A stretch of DNA of 37,727 nt from a virus. Positions 4,050 through 23,385 of the stretch are shown one piece after another. The notes beneath the pieces were generated by a model. It had not been told where the DNA came from. It worked only from the letters and a program-made list of their open reading frames with translations, and did not search any database. The position numbers and the translations under genes were made by a program. The stretch spans positions 1 to 37,727 of the IMG/VR virus record IMGVR_UViG_3300037339_000802. One strand, written 5' to 3'. How positions within the stretch are numbered: the first letter of the stretch is position 1; the number at the start of each line of letters is the position of its first letter.

Positions 4050-4973
4050 CTACGCGACGCCGGAGACGAGCTTCACCGCGAGGTGCGGGAGGCTGTACCC
4101 GAAGTTGCCCCGGTAGTCGACGCCGAAGTGGAGCAGGCGGTTGCGCTTCGACTGCGTCTCGTCGAGCCACTGCTCGGGCGCCTGCCTGTTCTGGAACACG
4201 AACGGCTTCACCGGCATGTTCACGACGAACCCGTACACGTCGTTGACGTCCGACGCTCCGGGCAGGACCACGACGTCCTCGACCCACTCCTTGAACGGGT
4301 TCATGGCTCCCGCGTTCGAGGTTCCGGGGTCGGCCGTCGAACCCATGACGGTCCGGAACAGCCGCTCCATCTGCGGGTGGCAGGCGAAGACGGTCGCCAC
4401 GAGGCCGAGCGTCTCGCCCTTGTCGTCGGTGAACTGCATGATCGTCCGCCGCATCGTGTCGATGTCGGCCTCGACCTGCGCGATCGTCGGGGTGCCGGCC
4501 GAGATGGTCCCAGCCCCGAGGTTGTCGATCAACCTCACGCCGCTCACGTCCGAGAAGAACGCGATGGCGTCGAACGCCTTGTACGTGGTGCCGTTCAGGA
4601 TGAGGTCCTGAATCTGCTTTCCGCGGTGCTGGAGGGCGCGGATCGCCAGCCCCTCGATGCGCGGCCTGATGATGCCGAACTTGTCGTCGGCCACCTCGTC
4701 GGCGTCGATGCCGACGGCCGCCGCGTAGTGCTTGTTCCGCAGGGTGTAGCTGTAGTCGGCCAGCTGGTCGACGTCGATGTCCCCCAGCCACTCCTGCACC
4801 ACCGGCAGCGCACCGAGCCACCGGTAGTCCTCCTCGGAGCCGTCGCTCATGACTTCCATGGCGAGCGACCCGAGTTTGGTCCACGGATCGAGGCGCGAGA
4901 ACTTCTGCAACGCCTCGTTGAAGATGGTCTTGAAGACCTTCTCCGCCACGACGATCTGCGTATGAGACAGCAT
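4050..4973 (-). CDS. Major capsid protein, Mu gpT-like (307 aa)
   Basis: This is a HK97-fold type major head subunit of the Mu gpT family. Supporting segments are FNEALQKFSRLDPWTKLGSL, SDGSEEDYRWLGALPVVQEW and LADYSYTLRNKHYAAAVGID near the N-terminus, and YGFVVNMPVKPFVFQNRQAP with a HFGVDYRGNFGYSLPHLAVK C-terminus. The LRNKxYxxxVxIDxDEVxDD pattern and the closing R/YxxxGYxxPxLA pattern are typical. The length of about 305 residues is standard, with no N-terminal propeptide evident. The ATG at 4973 has AGGGAGG upstream. It lies between the decoration protein and connector, and head assembly would use the nested scaffold and protease encoded just upstream. Confidence 0.88.
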   Translation of the reverse strand: MLSHTQIVVAEKVFKTIFNEALQKFSRLDPWTKLGSLAMEVMSDGSEEDYRWLGALPVVQEWLGDIDVDQLADYSYTLRNKHYAAAVGIDADEVADDKFGIIRPRIEGLAIRALQHRGKQIQDLILNGTTYKAFDAIAFFSDVSGVRLIDNLGAGTISAGTPTIAQVEADIDTMRRTIMQFTDDKGETLGLVATVFACHPQMERLFRTVMGSTADPGTSNAGAMNPFKEWVEDVVVLPGASDVNDVYGFVVNMPVKPFVFQNRQAPEQWLDETQSKRNRLLHFGVDYRGNFGYSLPHLAVKLVSGVA

Positions 4974-5903: not shown

Positions 5904-6443
5904 CTCCGCCCCTCCGTCGCCGGTCCCGCTCGTCGGGCCGTCGCCATGCGCAGCCCCGTCCGTCTCGGACAGGTGTGCGGCCGGCATCGTGTTCATCGCT
6001 GGCGTGTTCGTCAACGCCACAGCAACCAAGACTGGGTATACTTCATCGCCGTTGGTGACGTCAATCACCGACCCGATGTCCGCCGAGAAGTACTTGAACA
6101 GGCCGCCCTCGACGAGGGCCTTCCCCTTGTCCGTCCACTCGACCTTCGCGTACAGGCCATCGGCCCGCACCTGCAGGTCCTTGATCCACCCGTTCGCCTC
6201 GCCGCGGTCGTGGTCGGTGTCGACGAACGGCTCGCGCTCGCCGAGGACCTTCCCCGCCCAGTTGGCGACCATCTTCGCGCAGTACTCGGCCGTGATCGTG
6301 AGCTTCCCGTACGCGGACGTGAAGTACTCGCCGATCGGCAGAATTAACTGGTACGCGTCCTGTGCGTCGACCTCGGCGTCGGCCAGCGCGAGGCTCATCA
6401 TCCGTGCCTTCCGCACGGGGTCGAGGACCATTCCTTTCAGCAT
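5430..6443 (-). CDS. Prohead protease with C-terminal scaffold, Mu gpI-like (337 aa)
   Basis: The N-terminal half (about residues 1-170) resembles the Mu gpI / U35-type protease that matures the prohead. Segments include YQLILPIGEYFTSAYGKLTI, FVDTDHDRGEANGWIKDLQV, LYAKVEWTDKGKALVEGG and the FKYFSADIG strand. The His of the DTDHDRGEANG segment and the Ser of FKYFSADIG are the catalytic residues expected for this family. The C-terminal half is charged and helical, a scaffold domain. The ATG at 6443 overlaps the portal stop (TGATG), so the genes are coupled. A second start inside the gene (5903) probably gives free scaffold. Confidence 0.82.
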   Translation of the reverse strand: MLKGMVLDPVRKARMMSLALADAEVDAQDAYQLILPIGEYFTSAYGKLTITAEYCAKMVANWAGKVLGEREPFVDTDHDRGEANGWIKDLQVRADGLYAKVEWTDKGKALVEGGLFKYFSADIGSVIDVTNGDEVYPVLVAVALTNTPAMNTMPAAHLSETDGAAHGDGPTSGTGDGGAEMKTFAEIMAALAAITLTDDDKGALRKLLGVEEPKPDAALNTKVEALMGDVSMLRDVNKTLSDRLTVLTADAAAKRKAGVIELALNEGRIVPKDKEAWEKRFDQNPDLTSEILGSMPKQVDLSERGTGAGGTEVDVAFVSAAKKAGLTDETIAKHAPK

Positions 6444-8575
6444 CACACCCCCTCGCTTTCTGCCTTCATGACGGCGATCGTCATGCACCTGCACCGCGCC
6501 TCGGTCCCCGCACAGTCGGGATTCGGCGTCAAGTAGTCAGGGTCGTTGACGTCGTGGTGTTTCCCGTCGCGCGAGTGACAAAAGTCGCACGCGTTGCCGT
6601 CGAGGATGGCGGAGTAGTAGCAGTACTCGACGTCTTCGCTCACGTCGTCGAAGCCCGACTGCCGCCCGGTCCCCCACCCGCCGTTGACGGCCCCCGATGC
6701 CATGGCCTCCCACGTCGCCATGCTCATCTCGGCGGCCTCGGTTTCGAGGGCGACCCTCAACGACTCGCCCACGGCCCCCGCCTTCTTGGCCGACAGCGAC
6801 GCCGACGCGAGGGTCGTCTTGAGCTTGTCGCCCGCACCCTCGACCCACAACTGCAACTGCTCGTCGTACAGGTCGACGACCTTCTTCGGCCGCGACTGTT
6901 TCTTCGACACGGCCAGCGTCGACCGCTGGCGCCTGACCTCGTCCTGCACCTGCGCGCGCCCGACGGAGAACTGCCGGTCGAACTCCTTCCGCAGGGCCTC
7001 GTACATCTCTTTCTTGAGGACGACGCGGATGTCCTGCGGGCGCCGGCCGGCGACCAACTGGTTGACGATGTCCTGCGCCTGCGCCGTGCGCATGCCGAGG
7101 ATCCTGTCGGTGAGGGTCGCCGACGCGTCGGACAGTTGGAGCCCGTACCCCACGTAGTCGACGGTCTGTTCCTCGGCCGTCGGCGCGCGGTCGGCCAGCG
7201 TCATCCGTCCGTGGTCGTGGGCGTGGGCCTCCATGTCGTCCTGCGTCTCGTCGACGGTCGGCTCCTCGACCGTTTCGTCGTCCGATTCCTCGGCTACCGG
7301 TTCGTCGTCCCCAGTGTCCTCGACGACGGGCTCCTCGACCTCCTCGGCCTCGACGGCGTCGGGGAGGTGGAGTTGCGACCGCACGGCGGCTTCGAGGACG
7401 GCGTCGGGCTTGATGATCTTCGCGTCGACGAGGGTCTTGAGGACCGTCGGGTCGAGCGTCCTGATCTTCGCCGCCTTGACGATGGGGTACGCGTCGACCG
7501 TCCAGTTGTAATCGACCCACTCGCGCACGAGGTACCGGGTGAGGACCTGCGCGACGTAGTCGGCCGACGCCTGCAGGCTCATGAGGAAGACGTCGATGAA
7601 CGACCCGCCGAGGGCGCGGCTCCCAGTCTCCGACGTCCCGAGGTTGATGAACATGGCGAGGACGGCCTTCGCGATCATTTCGTCGTAGTACTTGATCGAC
7701 GGCAGGGCGTCGGTCCCGCCCTCCGACCCACCGCCGCCGAGGAGCGACACCTCGTACCCCTCGGGCTCCATGACGTACGCTTCCTCGTTGGCGTACAGGC
7801 GCCGCAGGGATTCCTCGGTCTGCCGCCATTCCTCGGAAGCGCGGTCGATGCCCGCTGGCACCTTCGCCTTCGGGATACCGACGCCGTGGCGGTCGTGCTT
7901 GATGGCGTTGATCTTCTCGAGGTTGTTCTTCACGAACCACGCTTTGTAGGCCGCCCGCAGGACGGACTGCCCCTCCCAGTTGTCGCCCTCTTTCTCGTTC
8001 GTGAAGACGAGGCACTTCTCGATCGGCAGGAAGTATTCCTTGCCCGAGTTGTCGCGTTGGACGATGTTCACGAGCCCGCCGTCCGCGCCGAGTTCCCACC
8101 GCACGATCGACTGCGGCAGGCGCGGGTCGAGCTTCTTCGGCATGACGAGGCCGTCGCGCAGTTCCCACACCTTCTCGAGGACGCTGAACCCGAAGGGGAA
8201 CATCAGGAGGGCGTGCCGCACGGTGTCGTCCCACGTAATCGACATCTCCTCCATGAGGCCGCGCTCGATCGTGTTGGCGATCTCGACGTCGCGCGCGTCT
8301 TCACTGGCCGGCTCGATGGTGTACGGATTCTGCCTGATCGGCAGTGCGATGGCGTTCGAGACGGCCTTGACCTGCGGGTCGCTCCGGCGCATCTCGTCGA
8401 AGATCGTCCGACCCGCGATGCCGTCGAGCTTCCGCAGGTACTCGCCCGTGTCCATGTACCCGCTCACCGTCGGCGCGTTGCCCGACACACCGACGACGGC
8501 CTTCGCCCCCGACGTCGGCGGCACCGACAGGCGCAGGGCGCGCGTCTCACTGACCCGACCGCTGTCCGTTCCCAT
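6443..8575 (-). CDS. Portal protein fused to a MuF-like minor head domain (710 aa)
   Basis: The N-terminal two thirds match Mu gp29-like (DUF935) portal proteins: DEMRRSDPQVKAVSNAIALP, PFGFSVLEKVWELRDG, KYYDEMIAKAVLAMFINLGT and GSFIDVFLMSLQASADYVAQ. The portal is the twelve-fold ring at the capsid vertex through which DNA enters and leaves. A very acidic linker follows (about residues 400-450). The last part ends with DGNACDFCHSRDGK (around 660) and ARCRCMTIAV, the Cys-containing end of MuF/gp30-type minor head proteins. The two are usually separate genes in Mu. The ATG at 8575 shares a base with the terL stop (TAATG) and follows GAGG. Confidence 0.88.
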   Translation of the reverse strand: MGTDSGRVSETRALRLSVPPTSGAKAVVGVSGNAPTVSGYMDTGEYLRKLDGIAGRTIFDEMRRSDPQVKAVSNAIALPIRQNPYTIEPASEDARDVEIANTIERGLMEEMSITWDDTVRHALLMFPFGFSVLEKVWELRDGLVMPKKLDPRLPQSIVRWELGADGGLVNIVQRDNSGKEYFLPIEKCLVFTNEKEGDNWEGQSVLRAAYKAWFVKNNLEKINAIKHDRHGVGIPKAKVPAGIDRASEEWRQTEESLRRLYANEEAYVMEPEGYEVSLLGGGGSEGGTDALPSIKYYDEMIAKAVLAMFINLGTSETGSRALGGSFIDVFLMSLQASADYVAQVLTRYLVREWVDYNWTVDAYPIVKAAKIRTLDPTVLKTLVDAKIIKPDAVLEAAVRSQLHLPDAVEAEEVEEPVVEDTGDDEPVAEESDDETVEEPTVDETQDDMEAHAHDHGRMTLADRAPTAEEQTVDYVGYGLQLSDASATLTDRILGMRTAQAQDIVNQLVAGRRPQDIRVVLKKEMYEALRKEFDRQFSVGRAQVQDEVRRQRSTLAVSKKQSRPKKVVDLYDEQLQLWVEGAGDKLKTTLASASLSAKKAGAVGESLRVALETEAAEMSMATWEAMASGAVNGGWGTGRQSGFDDVSEDVEYCYYSAILDGNACDFCHSRDGKHHDVNDPDYLTPNPDCAGTEARCRCMTIAVMKAESEGV

Positions 8576-10074
8576 TACCACCTCGCCTCGCGGAACCCGG
8601 CCGTGACGGGCTTCAAGTCGCCTTCGTCGGCCGGGCGCACCGATGCGGTGCCCTGTCCCATGAAGTACCCGCCCGCCGTCGCGTCCAACTGGTCATCGTG
8701 GGTACCATGGGGCGCTTCGGCCATCTCGTCAAGGTACTCAGCGTTCCAATCGCCTTCGACGACGTAGAAGTTCCCCGCCTCGACGACGGCCATGAGCGGT
8801 TCCCACCGCACGACCTTGTCCGTCGTAGGGACGATCGGCTGGACCGTGCGCGTCCCTTTGAACAGTTCACGGAAGCGCGTGAGGGTGTCCTTGTACCCCG
8901 CCACGCACTCGAGGCCGATGCGCACGCCGCGTCCGTCTGTCTCGGCCACGGCCCGGATCCGGCGGTCGCGCTCGGGGGCTTCCCACCGTCCGCGGTACGA
9001 AGTGGCGACGTACACGACGGGCTCAGGCGGCAGACCGTTCGCCCGCGGGCGCTGGACGGTCGCCATGAGGACGCCCGCCGTGTAGTCGGGGTCGTCCTTC
9101 GCCACCTGCTTCGTCGAGGAGGCGACGTCCCAACACCGAACCCACCGCAGGCCGCTCGGGACGGACGCCTTCTTGATCGTCTTCACCCGGTCGACGCGGA
9201 AGAGGTTGCCCGTCACGGCGACTGGCTCCTGTTGCATGAGGCACGCGAAGCCGACCGACCCGAGGGTCGCCTTCTGCGCCTCGTACCACTCGCGCGGGAA
9301 CCGTTCGGGGAACAGGACGCCCCCGGGGTAGGCGTCGTCCATCGCCGGGAACTTGATGACCTCGAAGTGCGGGAACTTCTCATCGGCGGCCATGGCCTTC
9401 TGCAGGCGCCCCACAGGGTCGTCCTTCCCCCACCGTGTCGTCAAGACGATCGTGACGGCCACGGGCGCCCGCCGGGTGAGGAAGTCGTTGCGGAACGACT
9501 CCCATACGAGGTTCCGCGTCGACTGCGACTCGGCCTGATCTTTGTTCTTGAAGAAGTCGTCGACGAGGCCGAGGGCGTACCCGCGGCCGCTCATGCCGCC
9601 CCCGAAGCCCACGGCGCTCATCAGTCCGCCCCTGCCCTCGATCGACCACCGGGCCGCCGCGGCCGACTCCGACGACACCTCGACGTCGGGCGCCCACGCA
9701 CGGAAGGCCTCGCCGTTGACGATCGTGCGGGCCGACCGCGACAGCGTCGTCGCGAGGTCCTGCCCGTACGTCGCGAGGAGGACCTCCGTCGACGGGAACA
9801 GGCCGAGCCAGTGCGGTGGCAGGGTCCGCGACAGCAGTTCACTCTTGCCGTGGCGGAAGGGGACCGTGACGACGAGGAACGTCGACCGCCCCTCGCGGTA
9901 CTCGGTGATCGCCCGGTCGATGCGGTCGCAGATGACGCGCGTGTGCCGACCGACGACGAAGGGCTCGGAGTGGTTCCACACCGACCGCACGAAGTCGAGG
10001 TGCCCCATGGCACGCTTCGAGGCCTCGACGCGGTAGTGGGCCGCGATCCTACCGAGTCCGTCGGGCGCCGGCAT
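8575..10074 (-). CDS. terL: Terminase large subunit (499 aa)
   Basis: This is the ATP-driven motor and nuclease that packages DNA through the portal. The Walker A motif is VPFRHGKSE (about residues 71-79), Walker B is LVDDFF (170-175), and a coupling motif TTRWGKDD follows near 212-219. The C-terminal RNase H-like nuclease shows WDVASS (Asp near 316) and HDDQLDA (Asp near 461 and 464). The length is typical. The start is uncertain. ATG 10074 is the most reasonable, but 10110 and 10014 are also in frame, and the gene begins inside terS. Neighbours are terS upstream and portal downstream. Confidence 0.92.
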   Translation of the reverse strand: MPAPDGLGRIAAHYRVEASKRAMGHLDFVRSVWNHSEPFVVGRHTRVICDRIDRAITEYREGRSTFLVVTVPFRHGKSELLSRTLPPHWLGLFPSTEVLLATYGQDLATTLSRSARTIVNGEAFRAWAPDVEVSSESAAAARWSIEGRGGLMSAVGFGGGMSGRGYALGLVDDFFKNKDQAESQSTRNLVWESFRNDFLTRRAPVAVTIVLTTRWGKDDPVGRLQKAMAADEKFPHFEVIKFPAMDDAYPGGVLFPERFPREWYEAQKATLGSVGFACLMQQEPVAVTGNLFRVDRVKTIKKASVPSGLRWVRCWDVASSTKQVAKDDPDYTAGVLMATVQRPRANGLPPEPVVYVATSYRGRWEAPERDRRIRAVAETDGRGVRIGLECVAGYKDTLTRFRELFKGTRTVQPIVPTTDKVVRWEPLMAVVEAGNFYVVEGDWNAEYLDEMAEAPHGTHDDQLDATAGGYFMGQGTASVRPADEGDLKPVTAGFREARW

Positions 10075-10571: not shown

Positions 10572-11234
10572 TCACTCGCCTTTCTTGTGCGCGAGCTTCA
10601 ACAGGTAGACGAGGACGCGGCCGAGGGCGACCTCCTTCGGCACGCGCTTCTTGACGAGCGTCTCCGAGAGGCCTGCCAGACGGTGCTCGACCGTCGGCCA
10701 GTCGCGCTCGGCGATGCGCATCGCCACGAAGTGGTACTCCCCGTCGTCCTCTTCGGCCTCGCCGCCGACCTTCGCCGGTTCCCACTGGACGTCGGCGATG
10801 GCGATGAGCTCGTCGATCTCGTGCTGGGCCATGTCGACGCCCGCGAAGTCGTCGCCGGCCGCCTTGAGCTCGGCGAGCAGTTTGCCGAGTTCGATCTTTT
10901 CGGCCTCCCAGCGCGTCTCGTTCATGACGACCGTCAGACGCTTCGCCTGCGCCTCGGTGAGGCCCGTCAGGACGTTGACCGACACCGCCCGCCACCCGGC
11001 GTTCTTCGCGGCGATCCACCGGTGCTCGCCGTCGAGGATCTGCCAGTACCCCTTCTTCCGCGGGTGCAAGCGGACCGTCACCGGGTCGACGAACCCGTAC
11101 GACTTGATTGACGCCTCGGCCGCGGCGATCGTGTCGGGAGCCATGCGGTTCGGATTCCACGGGTTGGCGACGAGCTTCCCGATGTCGACGCGACGAACGT
11201 CGACGTGGACGGCCGACCCGTTCACTTTGCCCAT
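10572..11234 (-). CDS. ParB-like nuclease-domain protein (220 aa)
   Basis: The protein carries the ParB/sulfiredoxin-like fold motifs: a region with VDIGKLVANPWNPNRM, then IKSYGFVDPVTVRL and WQILDGEHRWIAA (DGEHRW at 68-73, the nucleotide-binding motif). Phages often encode such proteins beside terminase or next to 7-deazaguanine DNA modification genes. The role may be DNA binding, nucleolytic or regulatory rather than partition, as no ParA is present. I chose ATG 11234 over 11255 because GGAGGGG lies six bases before it. It overlaps the DpdA-like gene by 13 nt. The C-terminal part ends VYLLKLAHKKGE and is helical. Confidence 0.8.
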   Translation of the reverse strand: MGKVNGSAVHVDVRRVDIGKLVANPWNPNRMAPDTIAAAEASIKSYGFVDPVTVRLHPRKKGYWQILDGEHRWIAAKNAGWRAVSVNVLTGLTEAQAKRLTVVMNETRWEAEKIELGKLLAELKAAGDDFAGVDMAQHEIDELIAIADVQWEPAKVGGEAEEDDGEYHFVAMRIAERDWPTVEHRLAGLSETLVKKRVPKEVALGRVLVYLLKLAHKKGE

Positions 11235-12016
11235 ACGATGCCCCTCCTCCGCCACACCTCGGAGACGTGGCGCTCGACCGCCCGTGCCTTCCTGATCTTG
11301 TCACCAGTGAAGACCTTATTCAATCGCCCGGTCATCTCGGCCGTGTTCGTCACGCGCCACCCGCCGTTCTTCGTCATGTCGAGTTCGTGGGCGAAGTACG
11401 GCCCGCGGCGCTCGAAGTACAGCCACGCCCGCGAGTCGGCCGACCACACCGGCCACCGCGTCGCGGCCCACTCGTTGACGAACCCGAACCAGTGCAGGCG
11501 CGGCATCTGCCCAGTGCGGCCCCACTGCGCGTACACGTGGTGGTAGACGCGGTCGAACCACGCCGCGATCTCCCGCCGGCGCGTGGCGTGGGGGACGAGG
11601 CCCCCGAGGGCGATGCGTCCGTACTCCTTGACGACGGCGGAGACGGCCCGGTCGTCGGCCCCGTACGTGACGATCGGCATGGGGGAGAGCCCGCGGCGCT
11701 CGAGGGCCCGCTGATTGCGCCGCGTGCCGTCTTGGTCGCCCATGACGTCGAGGTTCGCGTACTCGAAGGCACACCCCGCCTTCCTGCACGCCGCATCGAC
11801 GTCGCGGACCCACGCCGCGTACGAGGCAAGGTCGACGGCCTTCCCCTTCGTCGCCGCCGTGAAGGCCCCCGAGTCGACGAACAGGTGCGTGACTTGCGAA
11901 CCGAGGCGATCGACGAGGGAGTTGAAGTCTTCTTTGTAGGCGAACGACACGAGGATCGCAGTCAGGAGACGGGAGCGGTCGAGGTACCCGGCCGCCCCCG
12001 CGAAGTAGACGATCAC
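11222..12016 (-). CDS. dpdA: DpdA-like DNA (or tRNA) guanine transglycosylase (264 aa)
   Basis: This protein resembles phage and defence DpdA proteins, the branch of tRNA-guanine transglycosylases that swaps guanine in DNA for a 7-deazaguanine base. Visible motifs are HLFVDSGAFTA (Asp near 48), YANLDVMGDQDGT (88-98), MPIVTYGAD, IALGGLVPHA (substrate loop), LHWFGF (175-180) and VWSADSRAW near 190, which matches the SxDSxxW pattern of the family. The GTG at 12016 overlaps the queC stop (GTGA). The neighbouring queC and yhhQ genes strengthen the call. The length of 264 is short for a full TGT but fits phage DpdA-type proteins. Confidence 0.75.
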   Translation of the reverse strand: MIVYFAGAAGYLDRSRLLTAILVSFAYKEDFNSLVDRLGSQVTHLFVDSGAFTAATKGKAVDLASYAAWVRDVDAACRKAGCAFEYANLDVMGDQDGTRRNQRALERRGLSPMPIVTYGADDRAVSAVVKEYGRIALGGLVPHATRRREIAAWFDRVYHHVYAQWGRTGQMPRLHWFGFVNEWAATRWPVWSADSRAWLYFERRGPYFAHELDMTKNGGWRVTNTAEMTGRLNKVFTGDKIRKARAVERHVSEVWRRRGIVWAK

Positions 12017-12666
12017 ACGTAGTGCGCCAGAGGTCCGTCGACGACGCCCGCTTCCGCGAAGGCCTCGTCGCGCTCGACGCACGTCCCGCACACGCCGCAC
12101 GGCCGATCGCCGCCGGCGTAGCACGACCACGTCTTCGCCATGCGTAGGACGCACGGCCGCCCGAGGCGAGCGCCGGCCCGCACGATGGCCGCCTTCGTCA
12201 TGCGCGCGAAGGGCGCCTCGACGACGACCTTCCCGTACGTCCCGAGCCGGGCCGCCCGCGACAGGGCGCGCACGAATCCGCGACGGCAGTCAGGGTAGAT
12301 GGCGTGGTCGCCCGCGTGTGCCCCGTACCACACCCGCTGAGCCCCGACGGCCTCGGCGTACGCCACGGCGAAGGCCAGCATGACGCCGTTGCGGAACGGC
12401 ACGACCGTCGAGCGCATCGACGGGTCGTCGTACCGACCCTCGGGGAGTGGGACGTCCTTGGACATGAGGGCCGACCCTCCGCTGGGGAGCATGAGGTCGA
12501 CGGTCGTGAGGTACGGGTACAGTTCGTGGGCCGACCGGGCCTCGGCCGCGTCGTGCCTGCTCCCGTAGTGGAAGCGCACAGTGATGAGATCGTGGCCCTC
12601 GGCCTGCAACCAGTCGTGGAGGACGAGCGAATCGAGGCCGCCCGAGACGACGACGACGCCCCGCAC
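12013..12666 (-). CDS. queC: 7-cyano-7-deazaguanine (preQ0) synthase QueC (217 aa)
   Basis: QueC turns 7-carboxy-7-deazaguanine into preQ0 using ATP and ammonia. The PP-loop ATP-binding motif SGGLDS is at 8-13, and the C-terminal zinc site has four Cys (near 182, 190, 193 and 196) in SCYAGGDRPCGVCGTC, as in bacterial QueC. VVPFRNGVMLAFA and YGAHAGDHAIYPDCR are also characteristic. The length of about 220 is normal. The start is GTG at 12666. The gene lies between the transporter and the DpdA-like gene. No QueD, QueE or GCH1 is encoded in this window, so precursors would come from the host or medium. Some phage QueC relatives make other 7-deazaguanine derivatives. Confidence 0.9.
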   Translation of the reverse strand: MRGVVVVSGGLDSLVLHDWLQAEGHDLITVRFHYGSRHDAAEARSAHELYPYLTTVDLMLPSGGSALMSKDVPLPEGRYDDPSMRSTVVPFRNGVMLAFAVAYAEAVGAQRVWYGAHAGDHAIYPDCRRGFVRALSRAARLGTYGKVVVEAPFARMTKAAIVRAGARLGRPCVLRMAKTWSCYAGGDRPCGVCGTCVERDEAFAEAGVVDGPLAHYV

Positions 12667-18922: not shown

Positions 18923-18951
18923 AGTTTACCGTATTTCCGTGGAAACGTCAA
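18923..18951 (-). promoter_or_regulatory. Promoter B (sigma70-like) with embedded operator palindrome
   Basis: The -35 TTGACG (18951-18946) and -10 TAAACT (18928-18923) are separated by 17 bp. The spacer holds TTTCC-AC-GGAAA (18945-18934), a near-perfect palindrome shared with promoter A. The -35 overlaps the ssb stop codon. Transcription would begin near 18916 and run through ERF and the replication genes. The region is clearly AT-richer than its surroundings. Confidence 0.7.
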
Positions 18952-19334
18952 GCCAGCCCGGGCGGATACTCCTCCGCCGCCGCACCGCCGCCCTCGGCCT
19001 GCTTCGGGCTCGCCCCGAGGATGAGGCGCCCGACGTTGACGACGACCTTCGACCGCGGGCTCCCGTCCTGCGCCGTCCACCGGTCCTGCTTGAGCCCCCC
19101 GACGACGGTGACGGCCTTCCCTTTCTTGACGTACTCCCCGACGACCTCCGCCGTCCGCTCCCACGCCACGACCTCGAAGAACGACGCCTCCTCGACGGTC
19201 GCCCCGTCGTCGCCCTTGCGCGACCGGTTGACCGCGAGGGCGAAGGTCGCCACGGCCGTCCCCTTCGGCGTGTACTTCAGTTCGGCATCCCGGGTCGCCC
19301 GACCCGCGAGGACCACGACGTTCAAGTCTTCCAT
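18948..19334 (-). CDS. ssb: Single-strand DNA-binding protein (128 aa)
   Basis: This is an OB-fold SSB: LNVVVLAGRATRDAELKYTP, GTAVATFALAVNRS, FFEVVAWERTAEVVGEYVKK and GKAVTVVGGLKQDRW follow the bacterial SSB pattern in order. It would coat single-stranded DNA during replication and ERF-mediated annealing. The C-terminus (EEYPPGLA) lacks the usual acidic DDDIPF-like tip, so it may not recruit the host partners that bind that tip. ATG 19334 follows AAGGAGA by six bases. The third copy of the structured leader element lies directly upstream. Its stop overlaps promoter B. Confidence 0.9.
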   Translation of the reverse strand: MEDLNVVVLAGRATRDAELKYTPKGTAVATFALAVNRSRKGDDGATVEEASFFEVVAWERTAEVVGEYVKKGKAVTVVGGLKQDRWTAQDGSPRSKVVVNVGRLILGASPKQAEGGGAAAEEYPPGLA

Positions 19335-19344
19335 CGGCACTCTC

Positions 19345-19419
19345 CTTCTGTCCCGGCTTCGGACGGGACGTGCGCTTTCCGACGGGGCGCCCCTCCCGGT
19401 ACCCCGCCGCCGTCAGCAT
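19345..19419 (-). ncRNA. Structured leader element, copy 3 (before ssb)
   Basis: It starts right after the stop of the upstream gene with GCTGACGG. A first stem closes with GACGG/CCGTC, followed by GGAAAGCGCAC. A second stem GTCCCG/CGGGAC carries loop TCCGAAGC, then AGAAGGAG, the ssb ribosome site. The loop and linker equal copies 1 and 2 while the stems differ in a paired way. Confidence 0.65.
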
Positions 19420-19619
19420 CACTCGAACGGGAACCCCCGCCGCGCGTTCACCTCGTCGAGGGTCGACGGACCCACGACGTCGCGGACCGTCACCCGCCCC
19501 TGCCGCTCGCGCTCGCGCGCCCGGAGGACCCGCACGAGGTCACGGACCGACACGCCCACAAGGGCCGCCGCCCCCGCGCACGACACCCCGAGGCCGACCG
19601 CCCGCACGAGGGCCGTCAT
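19419..19619 (-). CDS. Hypothetical small protein with one membrane segment (66 aa)
   Basis: ATG 19619 overlaps the upstream stop (ATGA). The first third (LVRAVGLGVSCAGAAALVGV) is hydrophobic enough for one membrane helix. A basic stretch (VLRARERERQGR) follows, and the end is VVGPSTLDEVNARRGFPFE. The family is not recognised. It is the last small gene before the ssb leader element. The repeated codons for Arg could mark a charged cytoplasmic tail. Confidence 0.55.
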   Translation of the reverse strand: MTALVRAVGLGVSCAGAAALVGVSVRDLVRVLRARERERQGRVTVRDVVGPSTLDEVNARRGFPFE

Positions 19620-19819
19620 CCGTCGGCCTCGATGGTCTCGCCCATCTCGCGCAGTTCGGCGAACCCGTCGTACCCGTGCCGCGACCACCCGCAGTAGCAC
19701 CGGTCAAGCCCGACGTGGGCCCCGCACGTGCCGCACACGTACGCCCCGCAGTAGTCGTCCCGGGTCGCCGTCCCGTGGCACCCCGACTTGTCGCACGCCT
19801 TCTCTTTCGGCTTCGGCAC
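19616..19819 (-). CDS. Small Cys-rich zinc-finger protein (67 aa)
   Basis: Seven Cys residues lie in CDKSGCHG, DYCGAYVCGTCGAHVGL and RCYCGW, enough for two zinc-binding sites. The end is acidic and helical (FAELREMGETIEADG). GTG 19819 follows AGAAGGAGG. There is no known family. Small zinc-finger proteins in early phage regions often bind nucleic acid or modulate host factors, but no function can be read from this sequence. Confidence 0.65.
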   Translation of the reverse strand: MPKPKEKACDKSGCHGTATRDDYCGAYVCGTCGAHVGLDRCYCGWSRHGYDGFAELREMGETIEADG

Positions 19820-19820
19820 C

Positions 19821-20018
19821 TCACGCCTCCTTCTGGTCGGCCGCATTGAGGGCCACCTGCAGTTCGACCTCTCCGCCCGTGGCCGCCACGTGCTTCAACG
19901 ACACGCGGCGCACCGGCCCGTCGCCCTTCCTGACCTCGGCCCACGGCGGGACTGCCGAGCGGCACACCGCCACGACCGTGACGGCCACCTGTTGCCCGAC
20001 GACGTACACCATCCTCAT
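19821..20018 (-). CDS. Hypothetical small protein (65 aa)
   Basis: ATG 20018 overlaps the upstream stop and sits behind GGGAAGGGAGA. The product is beta-rich (MVYVVGQQVAVTVVAVCRSA, then KGDGPVRRVSLKHVAATGGE) and ends with VALNAADQKEA. It looks like a small single-domain beta protein. No family is recognised. Its last codons carry the ribosome site of the next gene. Confidence 0.6.
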   Translation of the reverse strand: MRMVYVVGQQVAVTVVAVCRSAVPPWAEVRKGDGPVRRVSLKHVAATGGEVELQVALNAADQKEA

Positions 20019-20230
20019 TCTCCCTTCCCGACCCAGTCGAGCCGGGCCACGGCGGCGACACACGCCGCCCGCATCCGTCGGACGCCCTCGACGGCCCCGT
20101 CGTAGAACGCCTTGTCGAGCCGGCCCTGCTGAGTCATGGCCCGGTCCTTCTCGACCTTCCGCACGCAGTCGTCCTCGGCGTCCATGATCGCCTTCGCGAC
20201 GCGGTACGCGAACTTCTGCCGCCGCGTCAC
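20015..20230 (-). CDS. Hypothetical helical small protein (71 aa)
   Basis: GTG 20230 overlaps the upstream stop (GTGA). It is a mostly helical, charged product: RRQKFAYRVAKAIMDAEDDC, then VEKDRAMTQQGRLDKAFYDG and VRRMRAACVAAVARLDWVGK. No family is recognised. Such a short two-helix protein could be a DNA-mimic or host-binding factor, but nothing in the sequence decides this. Confidence 0.6.
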   Translation of the reverse strand: MTRRQKFAYRVAKAIMDAEDDCVRKVEKDRAMTQQGRLDKAFYDGAVEGVRRMRAACVAAVARLDWVGKGE

Positions 20231-20472
20231 GTAAGGATCCCCGCGTGGGCCTGCACGCGCGCCGCTACGATCTGCACCACCGCGTCGTAGCTCTCGCCCG
20301 GCTGGCCGTCCTTCCCGACGACGTACATCGTCCGCCGGCGCGCGTGGCCGTCGCGGATCGTCGCCCCGTCGCTCTCGATCGACAGCATGGCCGCCGCCGT
20401 CTCGAGGTACTTCGCCGCCCCGATGTACTCGCCCATGGCGTTGTACACCTTCCACCGCGGAGCCGCCGCCAT
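20227..20472 (-). CDS. Hypothetical small protein (81 aa)
   Basis: ATG 20472 lies in a TGATG junction with the upstream gene and follows GGGGGTG. The sequence has a strand-helix layout: PRWKVYNAMGEYIGAAKYLE, then TAAAMLSIESDGATIRDGHA, then RTMYVVGKDGQPGESYDAVV. This resembles short phage proteins of unknown role that contain VYnpqgeyiaat-like starts. No function can be assigned. Confidence 0.65.
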   Translation of the reverse strand: MAAAPRWKVYNAMGEYIGAAKYLETAAAMLSIESDGATIRDGHARRRTMYVVGKDGQPGESYDAVVQIVAARVQAHAGILT

Positions 20473-20741
20473 CACCGCACCCCCTTCCCGTCGCGCGGGC
20501 CGGGTGCGAAGTGCACGAACCGACCCGCCTCGTGGACGATCTCGTCGAGCTCACCGGTGCTGTCGAAGTACAACAGCCGCCGGCCGTCGACGAGCCTCCC
20601 TGCCGCGTACAGTTCGGCGACGACGACTTCGATAGCGTTCGTCACCGACTGGTACTGGTCCCACGGACCCACGTCCTTGATGAACAGCGTCCCGCCCGGG
20701 TCGTCGCGCACGACGACGTAGTTCGCCCTGTCGCCGCGCAT
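20472..20741 (-). CDS. Hypothetical small protein (89 aa)
   Basis: ATG 20741 is in a TGATG overlap with the upstream zinc protein. The pattern YVVVRDDPGGTLFIKDVGPW, DQYQSVTNAIEVVVAELYAA and RRLLYFDSTGELDEIVHEAG is like a small phage protein often found in early regions of Gram-negative phages, where it has no assigned role. It is an alpha/beta single domain. Confidence 0.65.
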   Translation of the reverse strand: MRGDRANYVVVRDDPGGTLFIKDVGPWDQYQSVTNAIEVVVAELYAAGRLVDGRRLLYFDSTGELDEIVHEAGRFVHFAPGPRDGKGVR

Positions 20742-20911
20742 CACCGCACCGTCGGCATCAGCGCGACGCCCGGACACCGTTCGTTGGTGCATTCGTTGTT
20801 CTTGTTGACGTAGCACCCGCACGCGGCGCACCGCAGGCGCGTCTCGGCGTTCCGCCGCCACGCCTCCCGCTGGGCGATCGACGGCCGCCAGATTCGACGC
20901 TTGACTTTCAT
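20741..20911 (-). CDS. Small zinc-ribbon protein (56 aa)
   Basis: ATG 20911 overlaps the upstream stop (ATGA). A basic N-terminus (MKVKRRIWRPSIAQREAWRR) is followed by LRCAACGCYVNKNNECTNER and CPGV. The Cys residues form CxxCxC...C...C, suitable for one zinc ion. It is probably a nucleic-acid or protein binder. No named family. Confidence 0.6.
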   Translation of the reverse strand: MKVKRRIWRPSIAQREAWRRNAETRLRCAACGCYVNKNNECTNERCPGVALMPTVR

Positions 20912-21063
20912 CCCCGCACCTCCGATCTCGCCCGCGCCAGCACCCGGGCCGCCAGCCTGCACGCCGCCTCGTGACGGAGCATCCCGGACGACCTGATGGA
21001 TTCGCCGTCGAACCACACGACGACCCACCGCTTCCCATGACCCATGATCTTGACCCGCACCAC
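20908..21063 (-). CDS. Hypothetical small protein (51 aa)
   Basis: This gene is not long, but GTG 21063 is six bases behind GGGAGG, right after copy 2 of the leader element, and the stop overlaps the next ATG. The product is VVRVKIMGHGKRWVVVWFDG, then a helix SGMLRHEAACRLAARVLARA. This is a short beta hairpin followed by one helix, resembling a small DNA-binding or scaffold module. No family is recognised. Confidence 0.55.
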   Translation of the reverse strand: MVRVKIMGHGKRWVVVWFDGESIRSSGMLRHEAACRLAARVLARARSEVRG

Positions 21064-21074
21064 GTCGGGCCTCC

Positions 21075-21143
21075 CTTCTGGTGGGGCTTCGGACCCACCG
21101 TGCGCTTTACGCGGGCGCCCCGCGGCGCCCGTGCCGTCAGCTT
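21075..21143 (-). ncRNA. Structured leader element, copy 2
   Basis: It begins just after a stop codon (TGG TAA GCTGACGG). An ACG/CGT closure surrounds GGGCGCC-GCGG-GGCGCCC. AAAGCGCAC follows, then GGTGGG/CCCACC with loop TCCGAAGC, then AGAAGGGAGG, the ribosome site of the next gene. Both stems differ from copies 1 and 3 but stay paired. Confidence 0.65.
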
Positions 21144-21420
21144 ACCACAGGACCATCGACGGGCGCACCGCCTGCGCCTTGACGACGTACCCGATGTGCA
21201 GGTACGCCGCGACGTACCAATGGACGAACACGAGGACGTCGTCGACGGACCCCGTCGCGGCCGTCCCGCTCGCCGACCGGTAGATGCCGTCCTTCGTCCC
21301 GAGGGCGTACCCCGCGACGACCTGACTGTCGCGACCGTCCTCAAGGTTGAGGAAGGCCGTCGCCCGCGCGGAGTCGAAGCCGCGCTCCATGTACACCTCG
21401 ACTGTCAACTGCGCGACCAT
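21142..21420 (-). CDS. Hypothetical small protein (92 aa)
   Basis: ATG 21420 is in a TGATG overlap with the first early gene. It has a beta-rich start (MVAQLTVEVYMERGFDSARA), then TAFLNLEDGRDSQVVAGYAL, and a C-terminal VLVFVHWYVAAYLHIGYVVK that may be an amphipathic or buried strand-helix. No family is recognised. It precedes copy 2 of the leader element, which begins directly behind its stop. Confidence 0.6.
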   Translation of the reverse strand: MVAQLTVEVYMERGFDSARATAFLNLEDGRDSQVVAGYALGTKDGIYRSASGTAATGSVDDVLVFVHWYVAAYLHIGYVVKAQAVRPSMVLW

Positions 21421-21629
21421 CACGCGGCCGCCTTCCGGTACAGGCCGGCCGCCCCGCGCATCCGTTCGAGGTCGAGGCGGTCGACTTCCTCCCACGCCCT
21501 GCGGTACGTCCCGGCCTTCTCGAACATCCTCCGGTCGGCGCACCACAGCGCCATGCCGGCGAGGTAGTTCGCGTACTGCCCGATCGTGTACCGCGCCCCT
21601 GTGCTCTCTGCGACGATCTCTGGACCCAT
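21420..21629 (-). CDS. First early gene, hypothetical (69 aa)
   Basis: ATG 21629 follows GGAAGGAC, directly after copy 1 of the leader element and about 230 nt from promoter A. It is a helical protein with IGQYANYLAGMALWCADRRM, FEKAGTYRRAWEEVDRLDLE and an ERMRGAAGLYRKAA end. It is likely among the first proteins made after infection. The family is not recognised. Confidence 0.6.
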   Translation of the reverse strand: MGPEIVAESTGARYTIGQYANYLAGMALWCADRRMFEKAGTYRRAWEEVDRLDLERMRGAAGLYRKAAA

Positions 21630-21640
21630 TCTGTCCTTCC

Positions 21641-21707
21641 CTTCTGACCCGGCTTCGGACGGGTCGTGCGCTTTACGGCGGATCGTTCGACCCGCCGCCG
21701 TCAGCTT
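21641..21707 (-). ncRNA. Structured leader element, copy 1
   Basis: On the minus strand GCTG leads into ACGGCGG paired with CCGCCGT, then AAAGCGCAC. GACCCG/CGGGTC follows with loop TCCGAAGC, then AGAAGGGAAGG, the ribosome site of the first early gene. Linker and loop are identical to copies 2 and 3 while both stems vary in a compensated way. Confidence 0.65.
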
Positions 21708-21869: not shown

Positions 21870-21898
21870 AATATCGCATACTTCCATGGAAATCTCAA
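21870..21898 (-). promoter_or_regulatory. Promoter A (sigma70-like) with embedded operator palindrome
   Basis: The -35 TTGAGA (21898-21893), a 17-bp spacer and a -10 GATATT (21875-21870) lie in an AT-rich island. The spacer carries the perfect palindrome TTCCATGGAA (21891-21882), matching the site in promoter B at the same place. A further half-site (CATGGAA, 21911-21905) lies upstream. It would drive the small early genes from about 21862. Confidence 0.68.
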
Positions 21899-23313: not shown

Positions 23314-23385
23314 TGGCAGGGGTGGGGATCGAACCCACGACTTCCGGATTATGAGTCCGGTGACCTCCCGCTGGTCCACCCTGCT
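23314..23385 (-). tRNA. tRNA with anticodon CAT (Met or lysidine-Ile type)
   Basis: A full cloverleaf of 72 nt folds: acceptor AGCAGGG/CCCTGCC (first pair A-C mismatched), D stem GACC/GGTC with loop AGCGGGA, and anticodon stem CCGGA/TCCGG with loop CTCATAA. The T stem is GTGGG/CCCAC with loop TTCGATC, and the discriminator is A. CCA is not encoded. The anticodon stem lacks the GGG/CCC of initiator tRNA, so an elongator Met or Ile2 tRNA is likely. Its 5' half overlaps the end of the transglycosylase gene. Confidence 0.9.

Follow-up and report, generated by a model that had tools for sequence, protein, structure and literature searches.

The window analysed here is a whole 37,727-nt stretch of viral DNA (IMG/VR record IMGVR_UViG_3300037339_000802), and its minus strand carries three early genes, one of them ssb, that are each preceded by a copy of the same structured RNA element. 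The phage gave no match to cultured phages by megablast, a search with its ERF protein found no close kin, and the relatives of its terminase are only 28-44% identical. Its portal is of Mu type (window 6443-8581; Pfam Portal_Mu E 1.5e-54) and its tape measure of siphovirus type. Two adjacent ORFs at window 11222-12666 match the queuine tRNA-ribosyltransferase and QueC-like queuosine biosynthesis families and are possibly 7-deazaguanine DNA modification genes; a ParB-like protein (window 10572-11255) adjoins them. A tRNA-Met-type gene with a CAT anticodon (window 23314-23385, minus strand) lies upstream of the early region.

An early region with three structured elements

The features of the early region, in the direction of transcription, are as follows.

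21870..21898, minus strand: sigma-70-like promoter, TTGAGA-17-GATATT, a match to the consensus only, some 165 nt before copy 1
21646..21705, minus strand: type-P5 twister copy 1 (RF02684 43.8 bits; fold z -4.1; T1 and T2 pair)
21420..21629, minus strand: gene after copy 1, encoding 69 aa that match no known family; AGAAGGGAAGG as ribosome site and ATG 45 nt past the predicted cut
21077..21141, minus strand: type-P5 twister copy 2 (RF02684 38.0 bits; fold z -2.2)
20908..21063, minus strand: gene after copy 2, read from the sequence, GTG start, about 51 aa, no function assigned; AGAAGGGAGG as ribosome site and start codon 45 nt past the predicted cut
19347..19418, minus strand: type-P5 twister copy 3 (RF02684 35.8 bits; fold z -2.3; longer P1 loop)
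18948..19334, minus strand: ssb, after copy 3 (PHROG 44 E 1.4e-36; Pfam SSB E 7e-28); ribosome site AAGGAG; ATG 44 nt past the predicted cut

The promoter-like match at 21870..21898 may possibly mark the start of the early transcript. Copy 2 begins directly after the TAA (21144-21142) of the upstream ORF and copy 3 directly after a TGA (19421-19419), and the gene after copy 2 runs into the next gene with an ATGA overlap. For copy 1 the assignment of an upstream stop is uncertain, because this copy stands at the front of the early region and, at 68% G+C, long frames stay open by chance. The rule for start codons that we describe below holds for all three copies.

A first-pass annotation had described the three minus-strand elements correctly in sequence, coordinates, stems, loop and linker. 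The pattern AAAGCGCAC-N6-TCCGAAGC has three exact matches in the whole window, and still three when up to three mismatches are allowed, against a shuffle expectation of 0.09. The predicted fold of each element has a P2-P1 hairpin and, apart from it, a hairpin of 6 bp that closes a loop of 8 nt; the minimum energies for copies 1, 2 and 3 are -36.1, -38.0 and -40.3 kcal/mol, with z scores relative to shuffles of -4.1, -2.2 and -2.3. The ribosome site is single-stranded and outside the predicted fold, and the fold therefore does not hide it. That reading frames through the element differ between copies, which had been offered as a sign of selection on the RNA, has no bearing on the matter, since the elements are intergenic. 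The broader claim is borne out: the RNA is structured, is selected at the RNA level and stands just before the ribosome sites of early genes, ssb among them.

Assignment to the type-P5 twisters

In a scan against all Rfam families, copy 1 (43.8 bits) and copy 2 (38.0 bits) scored above the curated cut-off of 37.6 bits for RF02684, the type-P5 twister. The score of copy 3, 35.8 bits, lies 1.8 bits under this cut-off, with an E value of 1.2e-7 in its own genome. The elements matched no Rfam riboswitch or other Rfam class, and a search with RF02684 over 14 control genomes returned no matches. An artefact of base composition is ruled out by these control genomes and by the shuffles.

Twisters are recognized by three essential stems, two pseudoknots and a P4 that is extended by an invariant G-C pair; they cut 5' of a highly conserved A next to P1, the U at -1 is less conserved, and the base at this position makes hardly any contact with the active site (PMC5408937). 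The window elements map onto this plan, with GCU/AGC as P2, the first hairpin as P1 and the 6-bp stem as P4, and both folds and alignments place P2, the closed P1 hairpin and the P4 hairpin in the expected order. The linker AAAGCGCAC contains the cleavage-site A, the 3' strand of P2 and the GC strand of T2. The loop UCCGAAGC is L4, in which CCG pairs with the CGG of GCUGACGG to form pseudoknot T1 and GC forms T2. The parts of copy 1 and the cuts predicted from the RF02684 alignment, all on the minus strand, are listed here.

21705-21703, minus strand: copy 1 P2a, GCU; followed by GA (21702-21701) and T1a, CGG (21700-21698)
21697-21676, minus strand: copy 1 P1 hairpin; followed by U-1 (21675) and AA (21674-21673)
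21672-21670, minus strand: copy 1 P2b, AGC; followed by T2a, GC (21669-21668)
21665-21660/21651-21646, minus strand: copy 1 P4, GACCCG/CGGGUC
21658-21656 and 21653-21652, minus strand: copy 1 T1b, CCG, and T2b, GC, both in L4 UCCGAAGC
21675/21674, minus strand: predicted cut U^A, copy 1
21109/21108, minus strand: predicted cut U^A, copy 2
19379/19378, minus strand: predicted cut G^A, copy 3, with G rather than U at -1

T1, which joins L1 and L4 through three pairs, is CGG/CCG in all three copies. T2, between the conserved GC of L2 and the bulged GC of L4, reads GC/GC in every copy by inspection. The base 3' of the cut is A throughout; 5' of the cut, copies 1 and 2 have U and copy 3 has G. The window elements thus share with RF02684 P2, the P1 hairpin, the cleavage site, P4 with L4, and the pseudoknots T1 and T2. 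Judged from their sequences, the three elements all belong to the type-P5 twisters, a class of self-cleaving ribozymes, and we infer that they cleave at the predicted sites.

Their departures from the family are few in kind. The window has CGG/CCG in T1, whereas most relatives have GTG/CAC or GGG/CCC; its P2 consists of three pairs (GCU/AGC), the fourth pair of the RF02684 consensus being absent; and copy 3 alone differs from the consensus in its G at -1 and its long P1 loop. None of these departures breaks a core pair and each is found in other members. The P2 and T1 variants are present within the set of relatives described below. At position -1, the 119 parsed sequences, among them the window's three, comprise 110 with U, 6 with C, 2 with G and one with A. 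Where the elements differ from the family consensus, most substitutions are located in stems and compensate one another, as in T1, where GgG/CcC has become CGG/CCG.

Strong covariation had been claimed from the three copies. This is true of P4 and P1; P2 (GCU/AGC) and T1 (CGG/CCG), however, are identical across the window copies and covary only once relatives are added. T1 provides an independent test of the assignment because pseudoknots are not part of the RF02684 model. Of 119 sequences, 118 can pair it fully, using 11 different triplet pairs, and after shuffled reassignment of the partners a mean of 57.8 and a maximum of 72 of the 119 were paired. T2 also varies jointly among the relatives, from GC/GC to GG/CC; our parser puts T2 one base off in roughly one sequence out of ten, including copy 3, so that its pairing percentage is a lower bound.

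The first-pass annotation had read the conserved loop and linker as a translation switch, a binding site for an early protein or a ligand sensor. They are instead the catalytic core and pseudoknot strands of a twister: the invariant positions are L4 and the L1/L2 strands of two pseudoknots, and they can be accounted for without invoking a sensed ligand or a bound protein. A riboswitch, composed of aptamer and expression platform, was rejected for the lack of an Rfam riboswitch match and because the twister core explains all conserved positions. It is quite improbable, in our estimate, that the elements derive from twisters and no longer cleave, with the fold now serving one of the three roles suggested by the first-pass annotation. 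In favour of this are the location of the elements right at the ribosome site and the deviation of copy 3 at -1, but the catalytic and pseudoknot positions are retained in all three copies and the ribosome site lies outside the fold. The deviation of copy 3 also concerns a less conserved base with hardly any active-site contact (PMC5408937).

Relatives and their placement

A consensus pattern picked out 96 stretches in IMG/VR, and RF02684 was run on 89 whole contigs that came from this pattern and from a pattern for the window variant. Matches above the cut-off were present in 62 of the 89 contigs, which agrees with the earlier expectation that a covariance model would find homologues before other phage genes. 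From these contigs 130 elements were taken with their flanks, and the 120 distinct ones form the relatives set, which is biased toward canonical twisters because it was found with the consensus pattern. The window's own variant had no match in IMG/VR as an exact pattern, and looser patterns gave 5 and 10 matches, none of them twisters.

The relatives occupy a characteristic position. A Shine-Dalgarno sequence and start codon lie at most 50 nt downstream in 99 of the 120, compared with 15% at random positions on the same strand and 6 of 120 on the opposite strand, and when similar contexts are clustered the start is kept in 99 of 115 non-redundant contexts. At the other end, the stop codon of an open frame lies at most 12 nt from the 5' end in 78 of the 120 (11% at random; 19/120 on the opposite strand). 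The genes downstream of relatives and window copies are varied and include ssb, a Mu-type transposase, an exonuclease, ParA and a methyltransferase; position, not gene type, is therefore the constant. The same element precedes genes such as parA in Desulfosporosinus and other bacterial genomes. Membership in the type-P5 twisters, covarying pseudoknots and placement from stop codon to ribosome site are features of the window and of dozens of other phages.

Copies are often multiple. At least two lie above the cut-off in 26 of the 62 contigs, with a maximum of seven, and 66 of 67 pairs of neighbouring copies are on one strand, at a median spacing of 595 nt. Could adjacent ribozymes excise gene-length RNAs, whose ends an RtcB-type RNA ligase then joins into circular mRNAs? 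The ends left by twisters, a 5'-OH and a 2',3'-cyclic phosphate, fit joining by RtcB, and the adjacent same-strand copies of the window would free RNAs of 566 nt and 1730 nt. However, 36 of the 62 contigs, many of them fragments, have a single copy above the cut-off, and no RNA ligase was found among the window proteins from the part of the ORFs that was scanned. We consider circular messages highly improbable.

The three elements themselves are new members of a known ribozyme class; it is the placement rule, from stop codon to ribosome site, that may be new. A search for literature on twister with phage monocistronic messages, prophage or twister-P5, its scope being work other than the twister discovery paper (PMC3867598), found none. 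Twister and hammerhead ribozymes near the genes of Mu-like phages, cited in PMC10085705, are likewise self-cleaving and enriched near phage genes. The likeness extends to our relatives, since on some phage contigs a type-P5 twister precedes a Mu-type transposase. Overall, the window phage is no relative of Mu: its tape measure is of siphovirus type and its terminase is its own, even if the portal is of Mu type. The rule described here also differs in being positional and in involving several copies.

A proposed role in early messages

We propose that type-P5 twisters in the gaps before early genes of tailed phages cut the polycistronic early mRNA into separate messages, and we assign this reading a probability of about 0.7. 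As RNA polymerase passes, the RNA would fold and cut itself 5' of the A next to P1, dividing the early polycistronic transcript into separate messages. The downstream message would then begin with 5'-OH-AAAGCGCAC, followed by the P4 hairpin, the ribosome site and a start codon 44-45 nt past the cut, and the upstream message would end in an intact P1 hairpin bearing a 2',3'-cyclic phosphate. Because the P5 permutation keeps the closed P1 hairpin on the upstream product, both new ends would carry a stem, and we consider this the likeliest reason for the P5 permutation at such positions. As for expression, we suggest that the decay and level of each early mRNA would become uncoupled, as at the RNase III sites of T7, without a host enzyme. 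In T7 a host protein cuts the polycistronic early transcript at RNase III sites between the early genes; the cut in the window would also fall between early genes, but its predicted agent is the RNA. Against this best explanation stand the score of copy 3, below the Rfam cut-off, and its G at -1.

What the new 5' end would do to the message depends on the host. A 5'-OH end can escape decay that senses a 5'-monophosphate. In Bacillus subtilis, however, RNase J1 degrades the 5'-OH product of glmS (PMC3328962), so that cleavage could lower expression rather than protect it. The glmS ribozyme also self-cleaves in a 5' leader and leaves a 5'-OH end, but it has another fold and needs glucosamine-6-phosphate, whereas no ligand is implied for the window twisters. 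By analogy with glmS, cleavage might serve repression or timing, with the 5'-OH exposing the early mRNA to 5'-to-3' decay and limiting the protein to a short pulse. The RNase J1 result (PMC3328962) fits this view, as does a location just before start codons, which suits control of single genes. We nevertheless regard repression as unlikely: P4 invariably stays close to the new 5' end and should hinder 5' exonucleases, there is neither an aptamer domain nor a ligand, and ssb, which is needed in quantity, is among the targets.

The processing of early messages may extend well beyond the window. We lean slightly toward the view that type-P5 twister arrays in many unrelated tailed phages constitute a general self-processing system, and that this is a main role of type-P5 twisters. 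If so, each ribozyme spans the distance from a stop codon to the next ribosome site, and a single early transcript would yield several mRNAs with defined 5'-OH and hairpin-capped 3' ends. According to a review, many biological roles of nucleolytic ribozymes remain uninvestigated (PMC6154101), and the reason for bacterial twisters near phage genes is described as unknown in PMC10085705. The steady placement and the several same-strand copies per phage suggest a concrete role, which is self-processing of phage operons.

Tunturi_4 and other phage ribozymes

A cultured example is found in the Tunturiibacter phage Tunturi_4 (PP885687.1), which has four type-P5 twisters scoring 48-62 bits.

63092-63149, PP885687.1, minus strand: type-P5 twister (RF02684)
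62165-62226, PP885687.1, minus strand: type-P5 twister (RF02684)
59934-59991, PP885687.1, minus strand: type-P5 twister (RF02684)
58349-58409, PP885687.1, minus strand: type-P5 twister (RF02684)

All four lie in gaps between CDSs that were annotated by others, and two of them start one base past a CDS end. The next genes are gp87, gp86 and gp80 (hypothetical) and gp78 (DNA methyltransferase), and one of the twisters comes after the gene for the DNA polymerase processivity factor. The ribozymes carry no annotation in the stretch of PP885687.1 that was read. With four copies in a cultured phage whose host is Tunturiibacter empetritectus M8UP27, the proposed role is directly testable.

The Theta (HDV-like) ribozymes of gut phages are also phage-encoded, self-cleave and process phage transcripts, but they have another fold and lie beside tRNAs, not before protein start codons (PMC10879173). 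Matches to two further ribozyme families occur on the viral contigs. On a 70-kb contig (IMGVR_UViG_3300049138_000182), positions 2560-2635 of the minus strand match hammerhead type II at 31.7 bits, below the cut-off of 37, and this match begins at the TAG stop of an ORF, as twisters do. On another contig, L194, an HDV-F-prausnitzii ribozyme at 4572-4640 on the plus strand (48.4 bits, above the cut-off) shares both contig and strand with two type-P5 twisters.
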